Positions 14,858 through 29,370 of a stretch of DNA of 64,000 nt are shown here, in pieces. The first letter of the stretch is position 1. Each line of letters begins with the position of its first letter. The notes beneath the pieces are model-generated. The model saw only the letters and a list, made by a program, of their open reading frames with translations, did not search any database and was not told the DNA's origin. The stretch spans positions 1 through 64,000 of the forward strand of contig NZ_BBXE01000033.1 in NCBI RefSeq assembly GCF_001570565.1. The letters are read 5' to 3'. Both the position numbers and the translations under genes were made by a program. This DNA comes from Herbidospora yilanensis. GTDB lineage: Bacteria > Actinomycetota > Actinomycetes > Streptosporangiales > Streptosporangiaceae.

Positions 14858-15062
14858 GACGCCTCCCGTTTCGGGATCCCAACCGGAGAGACGGATTCGG
14901 GGGACGTGAGGTTCGGGTCGCATGATGATCTGGAATCACCATAAGGTCCGGCGGACCGTTCCAGAACCCGTGTCTCACGGAGATGTCCGGATGGCCCGAA
15001 GACGTCCCGGGCCGTTACGTGATCAAGGCTTCGCAGTCCTTCAGAACCGTCACTGGCTTCGC

Positions 15063-17081: not shown

Positions 17082-17412
17082 ATGGCCATACCTCGCAAAG
17101 GCTCCCGGCTCATCACCGTGAACGGCACGGTCTATCGCCGGCGAGTTCGGCACAGGCCGACTCATCTGGAGTCCGCTGTCCTTCTCGGTGGAACACGGGA
17201 TGCGTCCCGGAAGTGTGCTCCTGGTCAGTCTGCCCTGGGCACGGCCGGACAACTGGGTCGGCGCGAGAGCTGTGACGGTGCGGCCGGGACTGGTGGCATC
17301 GGTCATCCGGCGGGCACTCGACGAGGGATGGACGCCGGACGCCGCCGGCTCGACCGTCTCCCTCGCCATTACCGAGAACGAACCGGCTGAGTACGCCGCC
17401 CCGTTCCGGTAG
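17082..17412 (+). pseudogene. Frameshifted small conserved actinobacterial protein
   Basis: The start at ATG 17082 reads MAIPRKGSRLITVNGTVYRRRVRHRPTH, a typical beginning of a short actinobacterial family I recognise (PRKGSR...YRWRVR...PT). The family's expected continuation, WSPLSFSVEHGMRPGSVLLVSLPWARPDNW and on to WTPDAAG, is present but in another frame, ending at TAG 17410-17412. The shift falls around 17150-17172. It is therefore a pseudogene or carries a sequencing indel. Function of the family is unknown. It sits at the distal edge of the rnpB-linked island. Confidence 0.6.
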
Positions 17413-17587: not shown

Positions 17588-17752
17588 AGGCTTAAGGTGG
17601 ACGAGTCGGCCTCTAGGCCGGGTGCCGCTTCCGCGTGAGCGTTGCCTGCACGAAGATGCTTGGAACCGCGTGCCACCTGCGAGAATGTTGCCGCTCGTTC
17701 TCGTCGCTTGCCAGCAGTTCTCAACGCCATGTGCCCTGAAAACGCCCGACGG
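17588..17752. repeat. Diverged copy of the rnpB 3' end (distal att remnant) plus related flank
   Basis: 17597-17626 matches the last 30 bases of rnpB (19951-19980) at 26 of 30 positions. The following ~125 bases align without gaps to the flank of the second copy (19191-19321), with shared blocks such as CCTGCAC, TGCCGCT, CAGCAGTT and TGTGCCCTG. The first half of 17413-17587, before this repeat, contains nothing I can identify. This looks like an old attachment site with the terminal segment of an integrated element. Confidence 0.7.
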
Positions 17753-17806
17753 CAAATCGCCGGCCAGGGCACGCGCACGGGCTGCCACCTGACTAAAGCC
17801 AAAGGG

Positions 17807-18499
17807 TCAGGATTCCTCAACGAGTTCCGCTGCGGCCTTCGGATCCATGATGTTAGACCAGACCTGTTCGGCGGGCAGCAGATCGCGTTCAGGAAGTGCG
17901 TACTCGGGAAACCACGCGTCCGCCTCACAGCCGGGAACCCGGCTAAGAATCATCGCGGTCAGGTTGGCCGGAGCTGAGCCGGTGATGCGAATAGCCGCGT
18001 AAGTCTCATTTCCGTCGTCAGCGCGGATCAGAATGCCGAGGCGGAAGCCGGGGAAGTCGGCAGCGTGTTCGTGTCCGTCGCGCAGGGAACCGCGTGCGAG
18101 ATCGCGAATCGTGGAGTTGAGGCGCTGGGCGAATCTGGTGGCCGCTTCGAGCTGGTAGCGGTCGTAGTCGGCGTCAGTGGGCAGGAGATGCCTGCTGTAG
18201 GTGCTGGTGGTCAGGGCTTGGTCGTGCTTCGCGTTGTGGCGGGCACGGGCCGCATTTCCGCCGGCTTCCAGAGCCGCGTAGAAGTCATCGCCGGAGCCGT
18301 CTTCGCGGGTGCCTGCGGCTACCAACCACGCAGAAACTTCGGCGTCGGGATCGTCGATCCATACGGCGCCGCGCCAGCGCTGCACTTTCACCTTGAACAG
18401 CACCACATCGTCGATGGCGCGGATGCGCTCGTGCGCGGTACCGGGATCGGCGAACTGCTCGGAAGCCTTGTCGAGCAGGGGGTGGGTGATCGCGTCCAA
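17807..18499 (-). CDS. Unknown protein paired with a ribbon-helix-helix protein
   Basis: At least 230 residues. A TTG start at 18499 is possible, but the frame is open and protein-like upstream (TLRALRDDLKLSLPSAQIP) to 18586. There the natural start, an ATG overlapping the TGA of the upstream RHH gene (ATGA at 18582-18585), is in another frame. This suggests a one-base indel in the first codons. The protein has no recognised motif; it is mixed alpha/beta with WRGAVWIDDPDAEVSAWLVA and FRLGILIRADDGNETYAAIRI. Gene order (RHH first, larger protein second, coupled) resembles toxin-antitoxin operons. It lies inside the rnpB-linked island. Confidence 0.5.
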   Translation of the reverse strand: MDAITHPLLDKASEQFADPGTAHERIRAIDDVVLFKVKVQRWRGAVWIDDPDAEVSAWLVAAGTREDGSGDDFYAALEAGGNAARARHNAKHDQALTTSTYSRHLLPTDADYDRYQLEAATRFAQRLNSTIRDLARGSLRDGHEHAADFPGFRLGILIRADDGNETYAAIRITGSAPANLTAMILSRVPGCEADAWFPEYALPERDLLPAEQVWSNIMDPKAAAELVEES

Positions 18500-18581
18500 G
18501 GGGATCTGCGCCGAGGGCAGGGACAGCTTCAGATCGTCGCGGAGGGCGCGCAGCGTGGGACGGACGCGATGCGTGGCGATG

Positions 18582-18866
18582 TCATTCCTCCCAGTCGCCA
18601 GTGCCGCCGAGTTCGGTGACGCGTTCGGGCGACAGACCGCTTAGCAGGGACACGCTGGAAGACAGGGAGCCGTCCAGAACCTTCATCGACTCGATCATCC
18701 CGCGTCGGACCTGTTCCCGCTGCTGGTCCAGGTAGACACGTACTGCGGTGGCGACCAGGTCTTTCTTGGTCACTCCGAGGAAGTGGGCTCCTTGCGAGAT
18801 CAGCTCATCGGTTGCCGGGTCGACCTTCAGCGGCGCTTGCCTCTTGGCCGGGCGTGGCATCGTCAT
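18582..18866 (-). CDS. Ribbon-helix-helix (antitoxin-like) DNA-binding protein
   Basis: A 94-residue protein starting at ATG 18866, chosen because AGGAGG lies 6 bases upstream. Residues about 10-50 (APLKVDPATDELISQGAHFL then GVTKKDLVATAVRVYLDQQ) have the short beta strand plus two helices of the RHH fold. The C-terminal half is helical and acidic at the end (ELGGTGDWEE), as in antitoxins that wrap a partner. Its stop overlaps an ATG (ATGA) leading into the unknown gene downstream. It is probably autoregulatory. Confidence 0.65.
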   Translation of the reverse strand: MTMPRPAKRQAPLKVDPATDELISQGAHFLGVTKKDLVATAVRVYLDQQREQVRRGMIESMKVLDGSLSSSVSLLSGLSPERVTELGGTGDWEE

Positions 18867-18887
18867 GGACACCCTCCTGAGCTCCTA

Positions 18888-18899
18888 GTACCCATGTAC
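18888..18899. promoter_or_regulatory. GTAC-N4-GTAC inverted repeat upstream of the RHH gene
   Basis: Two palindromic GTAC units, 8 bp from start to start, lie 21 bp upstream of the RHH start codon, in a locally AT-richer stretch. RHH proteins usually bind short repeated palindromes in their own promoter, so this is a candidate autoregulatory site. Between here and 19155 I see no gene. Confidence 0.3.
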
Positions 18900-19155
18900 C
18901 TCAAGGATACAACACGAAGGGTCACTTTGAGAGGGGAAACCGTGTTCGCCGCCTACCTCGAACGCCCTCACGGCTGTTGGATCTTCCTGGGAGCGCATAT
19001 CCGTGCAGCTCGTAAATGCCGAAGGCGGAGAAGCCAATAAACACCGTTCCTCGGAGAGGAAGACTGGGCACGGCACCCATCGAAATCATGATCAGTTTCG
19101 CTCGCGAACCCCTGACGGAACCGGCGATCTTGTAAATGATCTCGCGCCTGATCGA

Positions 19156-19321
19156 AGGCTTAGGGGCGGACGAGTCGGCCTATAGGCCGGGTTCTAATTC
19201 CGCAGGATCGTGACCTGCACCGGAACCAGAGAGATGGCTTCTGAGCTGCAAAAACGCTGCCGCTGGTTGTCATCGCTTTGCAGCAGTTTCCGCGCTCGTG
19301 TGCCCTGGATGTGCCCGAAGG
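19156..19321. repeat. Second copy of the rnpB 3' end (att remnant) plus related flank
   Basis: 19166-19195 is identical over 30 bases to the rnpB 3' end at 19951-19980. The following ~125 bases are related without gaps to those after the third copy (17622-17752). Each copy with its flank sits at the rnpB-distal end of a small segment: 17.6-19.2 kb and 19.2-19.95 kb. This is the pattern left by two related elements that integrated one after the other into the 3' end of rnpB in the same orientation. Confidence 0.8.
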
Positions 19322-19417
19322 ATCCGAGATACTGACCGGGTGCGGAAAGCAAGGCCTACGAACCGTCACCGCTCGCTGAGGTTCGCTCGCGTTTTCCGGC
19401 GGCTGTCGCTCAGTTCA

Positions 19418-19672
19418 TCACTCAGGAGGCGACCAGTCCTTAGGTATCGGCTCCTTGAGGCGGCCAGTCAGGTGTGCCCAGTCGAGAACATCTGACAGCC
19501 ACCACCAGTCCCGACCAGAGATCTTCCCTGCGGGAGTGGGGAACTTCGGCACGTTCACCCACTCTTTTGCCGAGCGCCGACGCCAGGCGATGACTGTGTT
19601 CTCAGACACGCCGAGATGTGCAGCGACAGCGTCGATACCTACGGGGACCCATGGTGACCTAGGGCGTTCCAT
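19418..19672 (-). CDS. Excisionase/AlpA-like helix-turn-helix protein
   Basis: An 84-residue protein starting at ATG 19672 (MERPRSPWVPVGIDAVAAHL). The HTH is GIDAVAAHLGVSENTVIAWRRR, followed by a wing-like FPTPAGKISGRDWWWLSDVLDWA. This is the MerR-like layout of AlpA proteins and phage-type excisionases. It lies between rnpB and the second rnpB 3'-end copy, where a directionality factor of an integrative element would be expected. No integrase is left in the window. An upstream ATG (MRMYQTY) would add 10 residues. Confidence 0.65.
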   Translation of the reverse strand: MERPRSPWVPVGIDAVAAHLGVSENTVIAWRRRSAKEWVNVPKFPTPAGKISGRDWWWLSDVLDWAHLTGRLKEPIPKDWSPPE

Positions 19673-19694
19673 GCCCCGAGTGTACGTTTGATAC

Positions 19695-19719
19695 ATGCGC
19701 ATTTCTACCCAATGCGCAT
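19695..19719. promoter_or_regulatory. Paired ATGCGCAT palindromes upstream of the excisionase-like gene
   Basis: The 8-bp palindrome ATGCGCAT occurs at 19695-19702 and 19712-19719, 17 bp apart, 23 bp upstream of the start codon in an AT-richer stretch. It is a plausible operator for a small dimeric regulator, perhaps the HTH protein itself. Confidence 0.4.
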
Positions 19720-19886
19720 AGCTAAGCAATGCAGGTGGAACAGTATCCCAAGCAACCAGATTTGAAGAGTGCGGACCCACAACCCCGCGATCTTCTGCTG
19801 CGCAGGTCAGAGATTGCTCAGGTGGTTCCGCGAGTCACCGTGAAGGCCTCCGCCGGAGTCCTTGATCACTGACGTTGTGCCCGATT

Positions 19887-19925
19887 TGTGCCCTCCCGGC
19901 TGCTGGATCATGCCGGGAGGGCACA
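19887..19925 (-). terminator. Rho-independent-type terminator of rnpB
   Basis: A perfect 14-bp stem (19887-19900 with 19912-19925, TGTGCCCTCCCGGC and complement) has an 11-base loop. It begins 25 bases beyond the 3' end of rnpB in the direction of transcription. There is no T tract, which is common for high-GC actinomycetes. The stem also separates rnpB from the island genes. Confidence 0.7.
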
Positions 19926-19949
19926 CCCATGCAGGTCAGAGGGTTACAA

Positions 19950-20349
19950 GGCGGACGAGTCGGCCTATAGGCCGGGTTCTGTGGTCATCGCTGACCGACG
20001 GCCATCCATCTAGGGCCACGATTGCTCGTGGTCTCAAGCGGTCTACCCGCGCACCATCGGACGGGCAGTCCTCAAGCGGCGCGCGCGGGGACCCGAGGGT
20101 CCCCTTCTTGACCTTGCTCCGGGTGGGGTTTACCGAGCCGCCCCCGTCACCGGAGGCGCTGGTGGTCTCTTACACCACCGTTTCACCCTTACCTCCCCCA
20201 TGCGGGAAAGGCGGTCTGTTCTCTGTGGCACTGTCCCGCGGGTCACCCCGGGTCGGCGTTACCGACCACCCTGCCCTGTGGAGCCCGGACCTTCCTCGGC
20301 GAAACCCGGTAAAGGGTCCCGACGCGGCCGTCCGGCCGGCTCGTCCGCC
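19950..20349 (-). ncRNA. rnpB: RNase P RNA (bacterial type A)
   Basis: About 400 bases. The 5' strand of helix P1 (GGCGGACGAG at 20349-20340) pairs with the 3' terminus (CTCGTCCGCC at 19959-19950). Conserved signatures on the minus strand are GAGGAAGGTCCGGGCTCC and CCACAGAGAACAGACCGCC near the 5' half, and AGAACCCGGCCTATAGGCCG near the 3' end. This RNA is the catalytic subunit that matures tRNA 5' ends. Its 3' end is the repeat unit copied at 19166 and 17597. The ends are set from the P1 pairing and may be off by a few bases. Confidence 0.93.
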
Positions 20350-22386: not shown

Positions 22387-22496
22387 CTTGCACCTACAGC
22401 GTCGATGCCCCGTCCTTCAGAGCGGCCAGGACACATGGAACGGCGAAACATTTCGTTTTCCCGATTCGGCCGTTGCTTATCGATAGGATCAGCCGC

Positions 22497-23690
22497 ATGT
22501 CCCGCTATCGTCTTTCGCCGACACCTGTCCAGGAGGCGGCGTTGGCGGAGCATTGCGGGCACGCGCGCTTCGTGTGGAATCTCGCCGTTGAGCAGCATTC
22601 GTATTGGAAGCCAGGACGAAAAAGCGCGCCGGGATTCGCCGAACAATGCCGTCAACTGACCGAAGCCCGCTTGGAATTCGAATGGTTGCGAAACGGCTCC
22701 ATCATCGTCCAGCAACAGGCGCTCAAGGACTTCGCACAAGCGATGGCGAACTTCTTTGGCACGACCCACCGCAAGCCGACCTGGCGTAAACGCGGCCGGG
22801 GTGACGGGTTCCGCATTGTGGCCGTCAAGCCGGGTGATGTGCGCCGCCTGTCCCGCCACGTGGGCGAGGTCAGGGTGCCCAAGGTCGGCTGGGTGCGGTT
22901 CCGCTGGTCCCGCGCCGTCTCCGGCGACGTGAAGTCCTACCGGATCACGCGGGATGCGGCCGGGCGCTGGCATGTGGCGTTTGCGGCCGTCCCCGAGTCG
23001 ATCCCCGCTCCAGGTACGGGCGAGGTCGTCGGCGTCGATCGTGGTGTGACCGTCAGTGCCGCGCTGTCCACCGGCGGCGTGGAGACCGTCCCTGGCCTGC
23101 GCGAGGGCGAGAAGGACCGTCTGCTGCGCCTGCTGCGTAAGCTGGCCCGCGCCCAGCGGGGGTCGAACCGGCGCGGCCGGGTCAAGGCCGCCGTCGCCCG
23201 CCTGAAGGCGCGCGAGAGCGACCGGCGCAAGGACTGGGTGGAGAAGACCAGTACCCGCCTGGCCCGCGCCTTCGACGTGATCGGCGTCGAAGACCTGAAG
23301 ATCCTCGACATGGCCAGGTCCGCGAGAGGCACACTGGAGATGCCCGGCACGAATGTCCGTCAGAAAGCCGGACTCAATCGGGGCGTTCTCGCCGCCGGCT
23401 GGGGCCGGCTTGTCACCCGCCTGGAGCAGAAAGCGCCCGGCCGGGTGGTGAAAGTGAGCCCGCGTTTCACGTCGCAGATCTGTAATGCGTGCGGAAATCG
23501 CGCGCCGGAAAACCGTGAGAGCCAAGCGGTGTTCCGGTGTCGCGCCTGCGGGCATCAGGCCAACGCCGACGTAAACGCGGCCAGGAACATTCGCGATATC
23601 GCCGCAGGGCGTGCGGTGAACGCGCGGGGAGGCGACCCGGTTGCGGGGCCTGTGAACCGTGAACCTCAACTTGTCCTCCTTTCCGGCTGA
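22497..23690 (+). CDS. tnpB: TnpB, RNA-guided nuclease of an IS200/IS605-type element
   Basis: A 397-residue protein from ATG 22497 (MSRYRLSPTPVQEAALAEHC); a TTG eight codons upstream is also in frame. The RuvC residues appear intact: Asp in GVDRGV, Glu in GVEDLKI, and Asp in ANADVNAARN. Between the last two is a zinc finger, CNACG and CRACG. TnpB proteins use an RNA made from the element's 3' end to cut DNA at the empty site and so keep the element in place. All motifs are present, so this copy could be active. Mobility would require a TnpA in trans. Confidence 0.93.
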   Translation: MSRYRLSPTPVQEAALAEHCGHARFVWNLAVEQHSYWKPGRKSAPGFAEQCRQLTEARLEFEWLRNGSIIVQQQALKDFAQAMANFFGTTHRKPTWRKRGRGDGFRIVAVKPGDVRRLSRHVGEVRVPKVGWVRFRWSRAVSGDVKSYRITRDAAGRWHVAFAAVPESIPAPGTGEVVGVDRGVTVSAALSTGGVETVPGLREGEKDRLLRLLRKLARAQRGSNRRGRVKAAVARLKARESDRRKDWVEKTSTRLARAFDVIGVEDLKILDMARSARGTLEMPGTNVRQKAGLNRGVLAAGWGRLVTRLEQKAPGRVVKVSPRFTSQICNACGNRAPENRESQAVFRCRACGHQANADVNAARNIRDIAAGRAVNARGGDPVAGPVNREPQLVLLSG

Positions 23691-28921: not shown

Positions 28922-29370
28922 TCGTGCGGGAACTGACCACCCTGGCCGAGTTCGAGGCCCTCTACGGGGTGTTCGACACCATCTGGCGGCCCCAGCCGTC
29001 GAACCCTCCGGTGACCGTGGAGCTGATGCGGGCCTTCTCCCACGCGGGCAACTACGTGGCGGGCGCGTTCGTCGACGGGCGGCTGACCGGAGGGTCGGTG
29101 GGCTTCTGCTCCCCGCCCGGCGAGGCGACGCTCCACTCCCACGTGACCGGGGCGGTCTCACCCGGGGCCGGGCTGGCGCTCAAGCGGCACCAGCGATCGT
29201 GGGCGCTGGCCCGCGGGATCTCGACGATCACGTGGACGTTCGACCCCCTCGTCCGGCGGAACGCCTACTTCAACCTGGTGAAGCTCGGGGCGCGGCCGGA
29301 GCGGTACTACGAGAACTTCTACGGCGCGATGGCCGACGAGGTGAACGCCGGCGACGATGTTCCGCGACGG
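28918..29370 (+). pseudogene. GNAT-like protein with an abnormal 3' end
   Basis: Starting at GTG 28918, about 145 residues match a GNAT-like family I recognise (FEALYGVFDTIWRPQPSNPP, ITWTFDPLVRRNAYFNLVKLGA, RYYENFYGAMADEVNAGDD). After that the frame has no stop until 30288 and runs antisense through the acyl-CoA synthetase gene, giving Arg/Pro-rich sequence with no family character. The normal end, a few residues past NAGD, appears to have been lost through a small deletion or frameshift between about 29355 and 29374. The end given here is approximate. Confidence 0.5.

Follow-up and report, generated by a model that had tools for sequence, protein, structure and literature searches.

Two small integrase-less segments stacked at the 3' end of rnpB in Herbidospora yilanensis: probable remnants of conjugative elements that appear to use the RNase P RNA gene as their site

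Introduction

In the 64,000-nucleotide stretch of contig NZ_BBXE01000033.1 of Herbidospora yilanensis investigated here (hereafter the window), the gene of the RNase P RNA, rnpB, is followed by two short segments bounded by copies of its own 3' end. The question that this locus raises is how such copies came to lie downstream of a gene that is essential and single copy in most bacteria, and whether the segments between them can move. An earlier note on this DNA had read the copies as signs of serial site-specific integration into rnpB, with the gene kept intact each time, and the segments as relics or satellites mobilised in trans. In this study, the window was compared with its own genome (G000), with six other Herbidospora genomes (G001 to G006), with 297 genomes of the family Streptosporangiaceae and with genomes at class level. 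Our data suggest that the two segments, termed element 1 (next to rnpB) and element 2 (beyond it), are very probably remnants of rnpB-specific actinomycete integrative and conjugative elements (AICEs), resembling cis-mobilisable elements (CIMEs), which were serially accreted and would be mobilisable only with a helper.

Copies of the rnpB end in the window

The gene is the only RNase P RNA gene in the window, and it is complete by the Rfam class A model (Table 1), in line with the claim that it was kept intact. In a single-sequence fold, its 5' and 3' ends pair to form helix P1, and three copies of the 3' end, hereafter the cores, were observed, all sharing one orientation, the two extra ones lying downstream of the gene as had been described. 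The identical copy placed at 19166 by the earlier note is exact over 31 bases, and the second copy, near 17597, is likewise present, although its count is not 26/30 as stated there; it matches at 27/30 positions within the 30-mer and 27/31 within the 31-mer. When the whole 7.85-Mb genome was searched with a core pattern leaving three positions open and allowing up to 2 mismatches, the pattern was detected only at these three places, all at rnpB, and a reversed-pattern control gave 0 matches in any of the 7 Herbidospora or 297 family genomes searched. Within one genome, the rnpB and distal cores often carry the same variant bases, which either a need for pairing or common descent would give.

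Both segments are poorer in GC (0.60 and 0.63) than the larger flanks (0.72-0.74), with 0.67 in the 590 bp just beyond, and on the rnpB-ward side of both copies lies a related arm, aligned without gaps across about 155 columns at 71-72% identity, so that the reported lower GC and related flanks hold. The reported lack of an integrase also agrees with our searches, since neither segment gave a match to the rnpB-type integrase (one integrase family as query), to RepSA or to Tra, and no recombinase domain was found by Pfam in the segment frames searched. Having no integrase match of their own and no match to a replication initiator or FtsK-type transfer gene, the segments would not themselves be AICEs as judged from sequence.

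Table 1. Positions of rnpB, the cores, the two elements and their parts in the window
Feature	Position	Strand	Basis
rnpB, class A RNase P RNA, intact host target gene	19952..20343	-	Rfam RF00010, 296.8 bits, model 1-367
Proximal presumed attachment core, rnpB 3' end (3' strand of helix P1 and neighbours)	19950..19980	-	31-mer common to 19165-19195; P1 pairing
Middle core, 31/31 identical to rnpB end	19165..19195	-	Repeat comparison
Distal core, 27/31 matches; borders chromosomal flank continuous in G006	17596..17626	-	Repeat comparison, relatives
Element 1, 785 bp core to core, without integrase, both arms present	19165..19949		Core repeats, arms, no Int/RepSA/Tra match
Left arm of element 1, TGTGCC at +104 and +115	19196..19321		Arm comparison
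Right arm (P'-like) of element 1, TGTGCC at -74 and -63 from core	19858..19949		Likeness to integrase-bearing elements by eye
120-aa small helix-turn-helix protein, weakly excisionase-like	19421..19780	-	PHROG 597 'DNA binding protein', E=6e-6
Element 2, 1569 bp core to core, without integrase; also at rnpB in G001	17596..19164		95.4% over 1611 columns
Left arm of element 2, TGTGCC at +104	17627..17752		Arm comparison
Second right-arm-like stretch inside element 2, then about 150 bp to middle core	18964..19011		Local alignment score 46
RHH-type protein of 96 aa; G000 and G001 differ at 1 residue	18585..18872	-	Pfam weak, context
Partner protein open frame, family of unknown function	17810..18619	-	230 aa if begun at TTG

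Integrase-bearing elements at rnpB

The core is present in all seven Herbidospora genomes and occurs more than once in four of them, with a spacing of 12 kb in H. solisilvae NEAU-GS84 (G006), 20 kb in H. galbida NEAU-GS14 (G003) and 1.57 kb in G001. The G006 element harbors a tyrosine integrase, RepSA (PF20199, E=1e-154) and an FtsK/SpoIIIE-type transfer protein between direct repeats, a gene content that identifies it from sequence as an AICE; it is the kind of full-length, integrase-bearing element with the same core that the earlier note had proposed to look for. The G003 element has about 7.9 kb in common with it at 92-96%. Near the distal end of the G006 AICE, a Septu-like PtuA/PtuB defence pair was also noticed (L018, G006:C12, 11484-13540).

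A scan for integrases, taking one genome per species, disclosed 35 loci, of which 23 belong to Streptosporangiaceae (37-100% identity, some partial). A core was found in 23/23 of these, and rnpB lies within the locus in 22; the 23rd (L032) corresponds by core position to the outer member of a two-element stack in G021, where rnpB is located one element further on. In 18 of the 23 loci, the matched part of the integrase ends 130 bp or less from the core. The remaining 12/35 loci, in other bacteria, match weakly and often sit on short contigs; neither core nor rnpB is seen in them. The 23 loci span eight named genera plus one unnamed family member; family membership was looked up for seven of the eight, and Streptosporangium belongs to Streptosporangiaceae as well. 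Five distant integrases (31-38%) in Herbidospora genomes are situated on contigs other than that of rnpB. In a tree of 16 integrases, from which partial ones were left out and in which some rows extend to an upstream in-frame start, a clade supported at 100/99 unites the eight main rnpB integrases, with no resolved position for the second integrase type of G021, the one in Streptosporangium pseudovulgare and the one in G308.

Stacking was observed in several genomes. In G021, an 18.5-kb AICE stands in tandem with an element of 17 kb that has a different integrase and no RepSA or Tra match; G100 harbors an array of four cores, and in G186 a unit of 2.6 kb with an integrase is followed by one of 1.05 kb without. 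Together with the larger elements of relatives, the cores at 23/23 integrase loci and the conserved arms described below, these arrays support the earlier proposal of serial site-specific integration.

Arms of the elements

The stretch between integrase and core looks conserved among the integrase-bearing elements, and positions 19858-19949 of the window resemble it by eye. Among arms chosen from the fetched loci, the hexamer TGTGCC was present in 11/13 left arms (nine at +104, one at +105 and one at +109, with a second copy 11 bp on in three) and in 19/20 right arms (as a pair 11 bp apart in 14, ten of these at -74/-63), compared with 4.2% of random 160-mers from the same loci; the motif had been chosen by eye before counting and some arms are near-identical. 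The arms lacking it are L122, L045 and the G001 copy of element 2. Integrases of the lambda type recognise arm-type sites that are direct repeats one helical turn apart, and the TGTGCC repeats are likely to be such integrase sites. Element 1 carries four of these repeats together with perfect cores.

The 90 bp next to rnpB were also considered as a native downstream region of the gene, as first suggested by their sharing among G003, G004, G006 and the window and by their presence beyond the distal core in G001. This reading was rejected because, in other genera, most integrase-bearing elements also show this TGTGCC pair in the stretch from integrase to core; by eye, the G004 and G001 versions look like decayed arms.

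At the DNA level, the arms of the two window elements match AICE ends, but no match to an AICE interior was obtained for the DNA between those arms. Cores and arms are what the segments have in common with the integrase-bearing elements at rnpB, and they may well act as attachment (att) sites. The arms also bear on a further explanation, that the repeats are partial rnpB duplications left by replication or recombination errors with no mobile element involved. In its favour, a partial rnpB copy lies beside a similar gene pair in G130; in the window, only the 31-bp end of rnpB and no further part of it is repeated, and with arms shared with integrase-bearing elements this origin is highly improbable. 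The partial second rnpB of G130 (L115, G130:C117, 4353-4524) is made of two blocks, 99% and 93% identical to the intact gene, with the middle missing and with a core of its own, and a ribbon-helix-helix (RHH) gene pair is located between the partial and the intact rnpB.

Gene content and history of the two elements

Element 2 recurs in G001 as the same 1.57-kb segment, 95.4% identical and ending at the cores. In 119 overlapping 1.6-kb windows of the G000 and G001 backbone, identity ranged from 82.4 to 93.3% (median 89.3%), all below that of element 2, in a comparison that omits matches under 800 bp and unaligned stretches. In G001, element 2 touches rnpB, with an arm-like stretch on the far side of its distal core; element 1 separates element 2 from rnpB in the window. 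This is an indirect sign, from sequence comparison, that element 2 may have moved as one unit.

Two rival explanations were weighed. According to the first, the segments are dead relics that have lost their integrase and are immobile, and element 2 came to be in G001 by shared ancestry or ordinary homologous recombination. The four changes in the distal core, the lost start codon of the partner gene (see below), the irregular right end of element 2 and the best backbone windows, which at 93.3% are not far under 95.4%, are all consistent with it. The high identity nevertheless stops at the cores, the order relative to rnpB differs between G000 and G001, and element 1 keeps perfect cores and arm repeats, for which reasons we regard complete immobility as somewhat unlikely. 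According to the second, the segments are true satellites, non-autonomous and actively moved in trans by the integrase (perhaps also the transfer genes) of a resident or incoming rnpB AICE, much like a miniature inverted-repeat transposable element (MITE) of an integrative element. It gains from the presence of the same discrete unit in two species, in different stacking order and more alike than the compared backbone, from the four arm repeats and perfect cores of element 1, and from the RHH gene of element 2, in which 5 codon changes between G000 and G001 are synonymous and 1 is non-synonymous. However, a CIME mobilised in cis by an accreted AICE would leave an identical pattern, element 2 has a decayed partner gene, and no helper integrase was matched in G000 or G001 at E<=1e-20; active satellites are therefore an unlikely description of these segments.

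The right end of element 2 contains the second right-arm-like stretch, whose alignment score was reached by 0/1000 shuffles and by two of 438 background segments, both overlapping views of the distal core. The roughly 150 bp that follow are possibly a further tiny remnant. The protein reported as RHH is a weak case by Pfam alone (E=0.0018, below the cut-off), and its context sustains the name, as the RHH gene stands in front of the partner gene in 24/29 loci of the partner's relatives. Intact relatives of the partner gene exist; compared with them, its usual start codon is lost in G000 and G001, and the frame is additionally disrupted in G001. Its codon changes between the two genomes (11 synonymous, 19 non-synonymous) were set aside, as they cover a part that is out of frame in G001. 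A 12-member alignment of the partner protein matched nothing in the PDB and nothing in Pfam or NCBIfam below E=0.03. A toxin-antitoxin role for the pair would be a guess, which we do not claim.

The single gene of element 1 encodes a small helix-turn-helix (HTH) protein that had been called excisionase-like. The likeness is weak: excisionase PHROGs matched at E 0.0017-0.018 and HTH Pfam matches were below the cut-off. Relatives (E<=0.001) were detected in 18 other genomes of the 297 in the family, several of them weak, and of 12 loci examined, integrase-like sequence lies beside one and a core or arm beside none; an excisionase identity was not adopted. The best partial match to the interior of element 1 covers 285 of 539 bp, and the partial matches sit on the HTH gene, with the exception of one of 79 bp.

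Distribution in the family and beyond

The core pattern was observed in 183/297 family genomes and in two or more copies in 41 (per-genome table), several of these on different contigs; an extra core on the contig and strand of rnpB was found in 24 genomes, including G000, G003 and G266. Smaller single units at rnpB range from 0.68 to 4.1 kb, and in G082 two cores lie 1.2 kb apart with no rnpB in the stretch fetched. Among 26 core-to-core segments chosen from the fetched loci, 11 gave no match to the single integrase query, which speaks for satellites, and others retained a C-terminal piece of the integrase only. Some other small elements, on the contrary, look like plain AICE deletions: those of G108, G146 and G199 match the integrase end of the G064 AICE and a left part of it and lack what lies between, so loss of the interior with retention of both ends is one outcome for elements of this family.

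At class level, a related pattern (up to 1 mismatch) was present in 80/296 genomes, a count that understates the use of rnpB elsewhere because the pattern is narrow. Outside the family, G308 alone, a member of another actinobacterial family, combines two nearby copies on the same strand of a single contig; where other genomes contain two copies, these are on separate contigs or on opposite strands at a large distance. The rnpB cores of G308 enclose a 14.6-kb element encoding both a TrwC-type relaxase and an integrase (L140, G308:C1, 1212-15876), and the rnpB site is consequently not confined to one family. This element also carries cation-efflux and P-type ATPase genes. Its integrase, 37% related, occupies the distal end, and 1.2 kb farther out there is a third, weaker core. 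A search of phage and plasmid records with window positions 19160-19330 (core and arm) returned no phage and one plasmid record, the latter matching by the core only.

Other features of the window

A TnpB-like gene with OrfB_IS605 and Cas12f1-like TNB domains is located at 22473-23690, about 2 kb upstream of rnpB. At 29167-29258, ARAGORN reports a tRNA with a four-base anticodon (cgtg), which is possibly spurious.

Discussion

The cores, the arms, their order, the lack of a matching integrase and the larger integrase-bearing elements of relatives can be read directly from these genomes. We infer from them that recombination makes the junctions and in what order the elements arrived. In the mechanism that we propose, the tyrosine integrase of an intact AICE would recombine the roughly 31-bp core of the element with the identical 31 bp that close rnpB. 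As these bases provide the 3' strand of helix P1, integration would swap this strand for the copy of the element; the incoming element would provide the replacement strand, the ribozyme would stay whole, and the old core copy would be left at the far end of the element. Element 2 would have come first, next to the chromosomal flank, and element 1 later, between element 2 and rnpB. Both would still be movable only with the integrase of a related AICE, acting in trans or, once accreted, in cis. The earlier phrase 'relics or satellites mobilised in trans' is accordingly to be refined: the architecture fits CIMEs, whose described mode is in cis, and movement in trans is possible.

Several observations weigh against this explanation. 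A cognate integrase gave no match at E<=1e-20 in the whole genomes of G000 or G001, a threshold under which weaker tyrosine recombinases are possible. Integrases as distant as 30-37% also sit at rnpB, so site and clade are not one to one. The interior of element 1 was found as a unit in none of the 296 other family genomes; the right end of element 2 is irregular; its G001 copy is devoid of TGTGCC in the left arm, and the choice of this motif by eye, as stated above, tempers the arm counts. G130 displays a 1.6-kb unit similar to element 2 that lies between rnpB and the partial rnpB copy and has no arms.

The comparison of sites among relatives, proposed in the earlier note, gave occupied sites (G006, G003 and G001) and no clean empty site among the seven Herbidospora genomes, as the single-core genomes G002, G004 and G005 have other DNA or a decayed arm next to rnpB. 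The chromosomal flank past the distal core of the window continues in G006 up to and through the core, and the same flank is common to G003, G002 and G005 up to about 17,340-17,380; in G001 and G004, it ends near 14,920-14,970, not at the core. Since flank sharing stops at these differing points, the DNA between the flank and rnpB is variable in all of them.

Cores at many unrelated loci, which the earlier note had named as a finding that would refute its reading, are seen in part, as copies away from rnpB exist in other genera (G146, G108, G128, G100, G064 and G140); in G000, all cores are at rnpB. In 12 such places (L058-L063, L065, L066, L068, L069, L071 and L075), with about 0.6-3 kb on each side and larger flanks for 4/12, six cores have the known left arm, five share a second sort of flank, and one has neither. 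The second sort of flank is also found at a core of the rnpB array of G128, and the left flanks of the off-rnpB cores of G108 and G100 are 96% identical over 2 kb. Within the four larger flanks, a weak integrase-like stretch (41%, 81 residues) was noticed about 19 kb from the off-rnpB core in G146.

A bolder proposal goes beyond remnants at one locus. The 3' end of rnpB could be a hub throughout Streptosporangiaceae with an integrase clade of its own, and the integrase-less units of 0.7-1.6 kb could be live satellites, pared down to core and arms, that hop between species by means of any incoming rnpB AICE, repeatedly rewriting the P1 3' strand of the essential ribozyme of the host; we consider this speculative and improbable as a whole. 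Returning to CIME-like remnants of rnpB AICEs, if this explanation is true, the RNase P RNA gene can be counted among the places where actinomycete conjugative elements insert, and the integrase group involved is seen in eight named genera. It would also offer a compact system, with a 31-bp core, arm repeats 11 bp apart and a 785-bp natural substrate, in which the movement of integrase-less units in cis and in trans could be compared. Moreover, as the core is the P1 3' strand, each insertion would test whether part of a ribozyme can be swapped harmlessly.

Comparison with known systems

The phenomena of accretion and CIMEs are already known; what this study probably adds is rnpB as their site. 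No passage found in the part of the open literature searched names rnpB as an attachment site, subscription papers being mostly outside that scope.

Among known systems, AICEs of the pSAM2 type are similar in that the G006 element carries a tyrosine integrase, RepSA and an FtsK/SpoIIIE-type transfer protein, and in that elements with different integrases stack at one site, as passages of PMC9513070 describe for the accretion of Streptomyces AICEs at a tRNA-Arg gene. They differ in that the site here is rnpB, the population sites in those passages being mostly tRNA genes (36), besides protein genes (14) and one intergenic place, and in that the window segments hold none of the AICE genes.

With CIMEs, defined in passages of PMC7563491 as decayed elements that keep att sites, lack recombination and transfer genes and stand in tandem by accretion, with cis-mobilisation after accretion as the mode described, the likeness is closer. 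The window segments are flanked by presumed att sites and have no recombination or transfer gene matches, and the most decayed core is farthest from rnpB, just as the most decayed of the streptococcal tandem elements lie farthest from the target gene in those passages. Element 2 (1.57 kb) falls inside the size range of 1.2-13 kb given there; element 1 (0.785 kb, one gene), in contrast, lies between CIMEs and the gene-less microCIMEs of 130-220 bp. The streptococcal examples are also unlike the present ones in being at protein and tRNA genes, and no AICE is now found in the G000 array.

Finally, the islands of the Islander type in tRNA and tmRNA genes, as presented in PMC4383910, share with this locus the restoration of the split 3' end of a structured RNA with a displaced fragment left behind, the difference being that the target here is the RNase P RNA and the core is the 3' strand of its helix P1.

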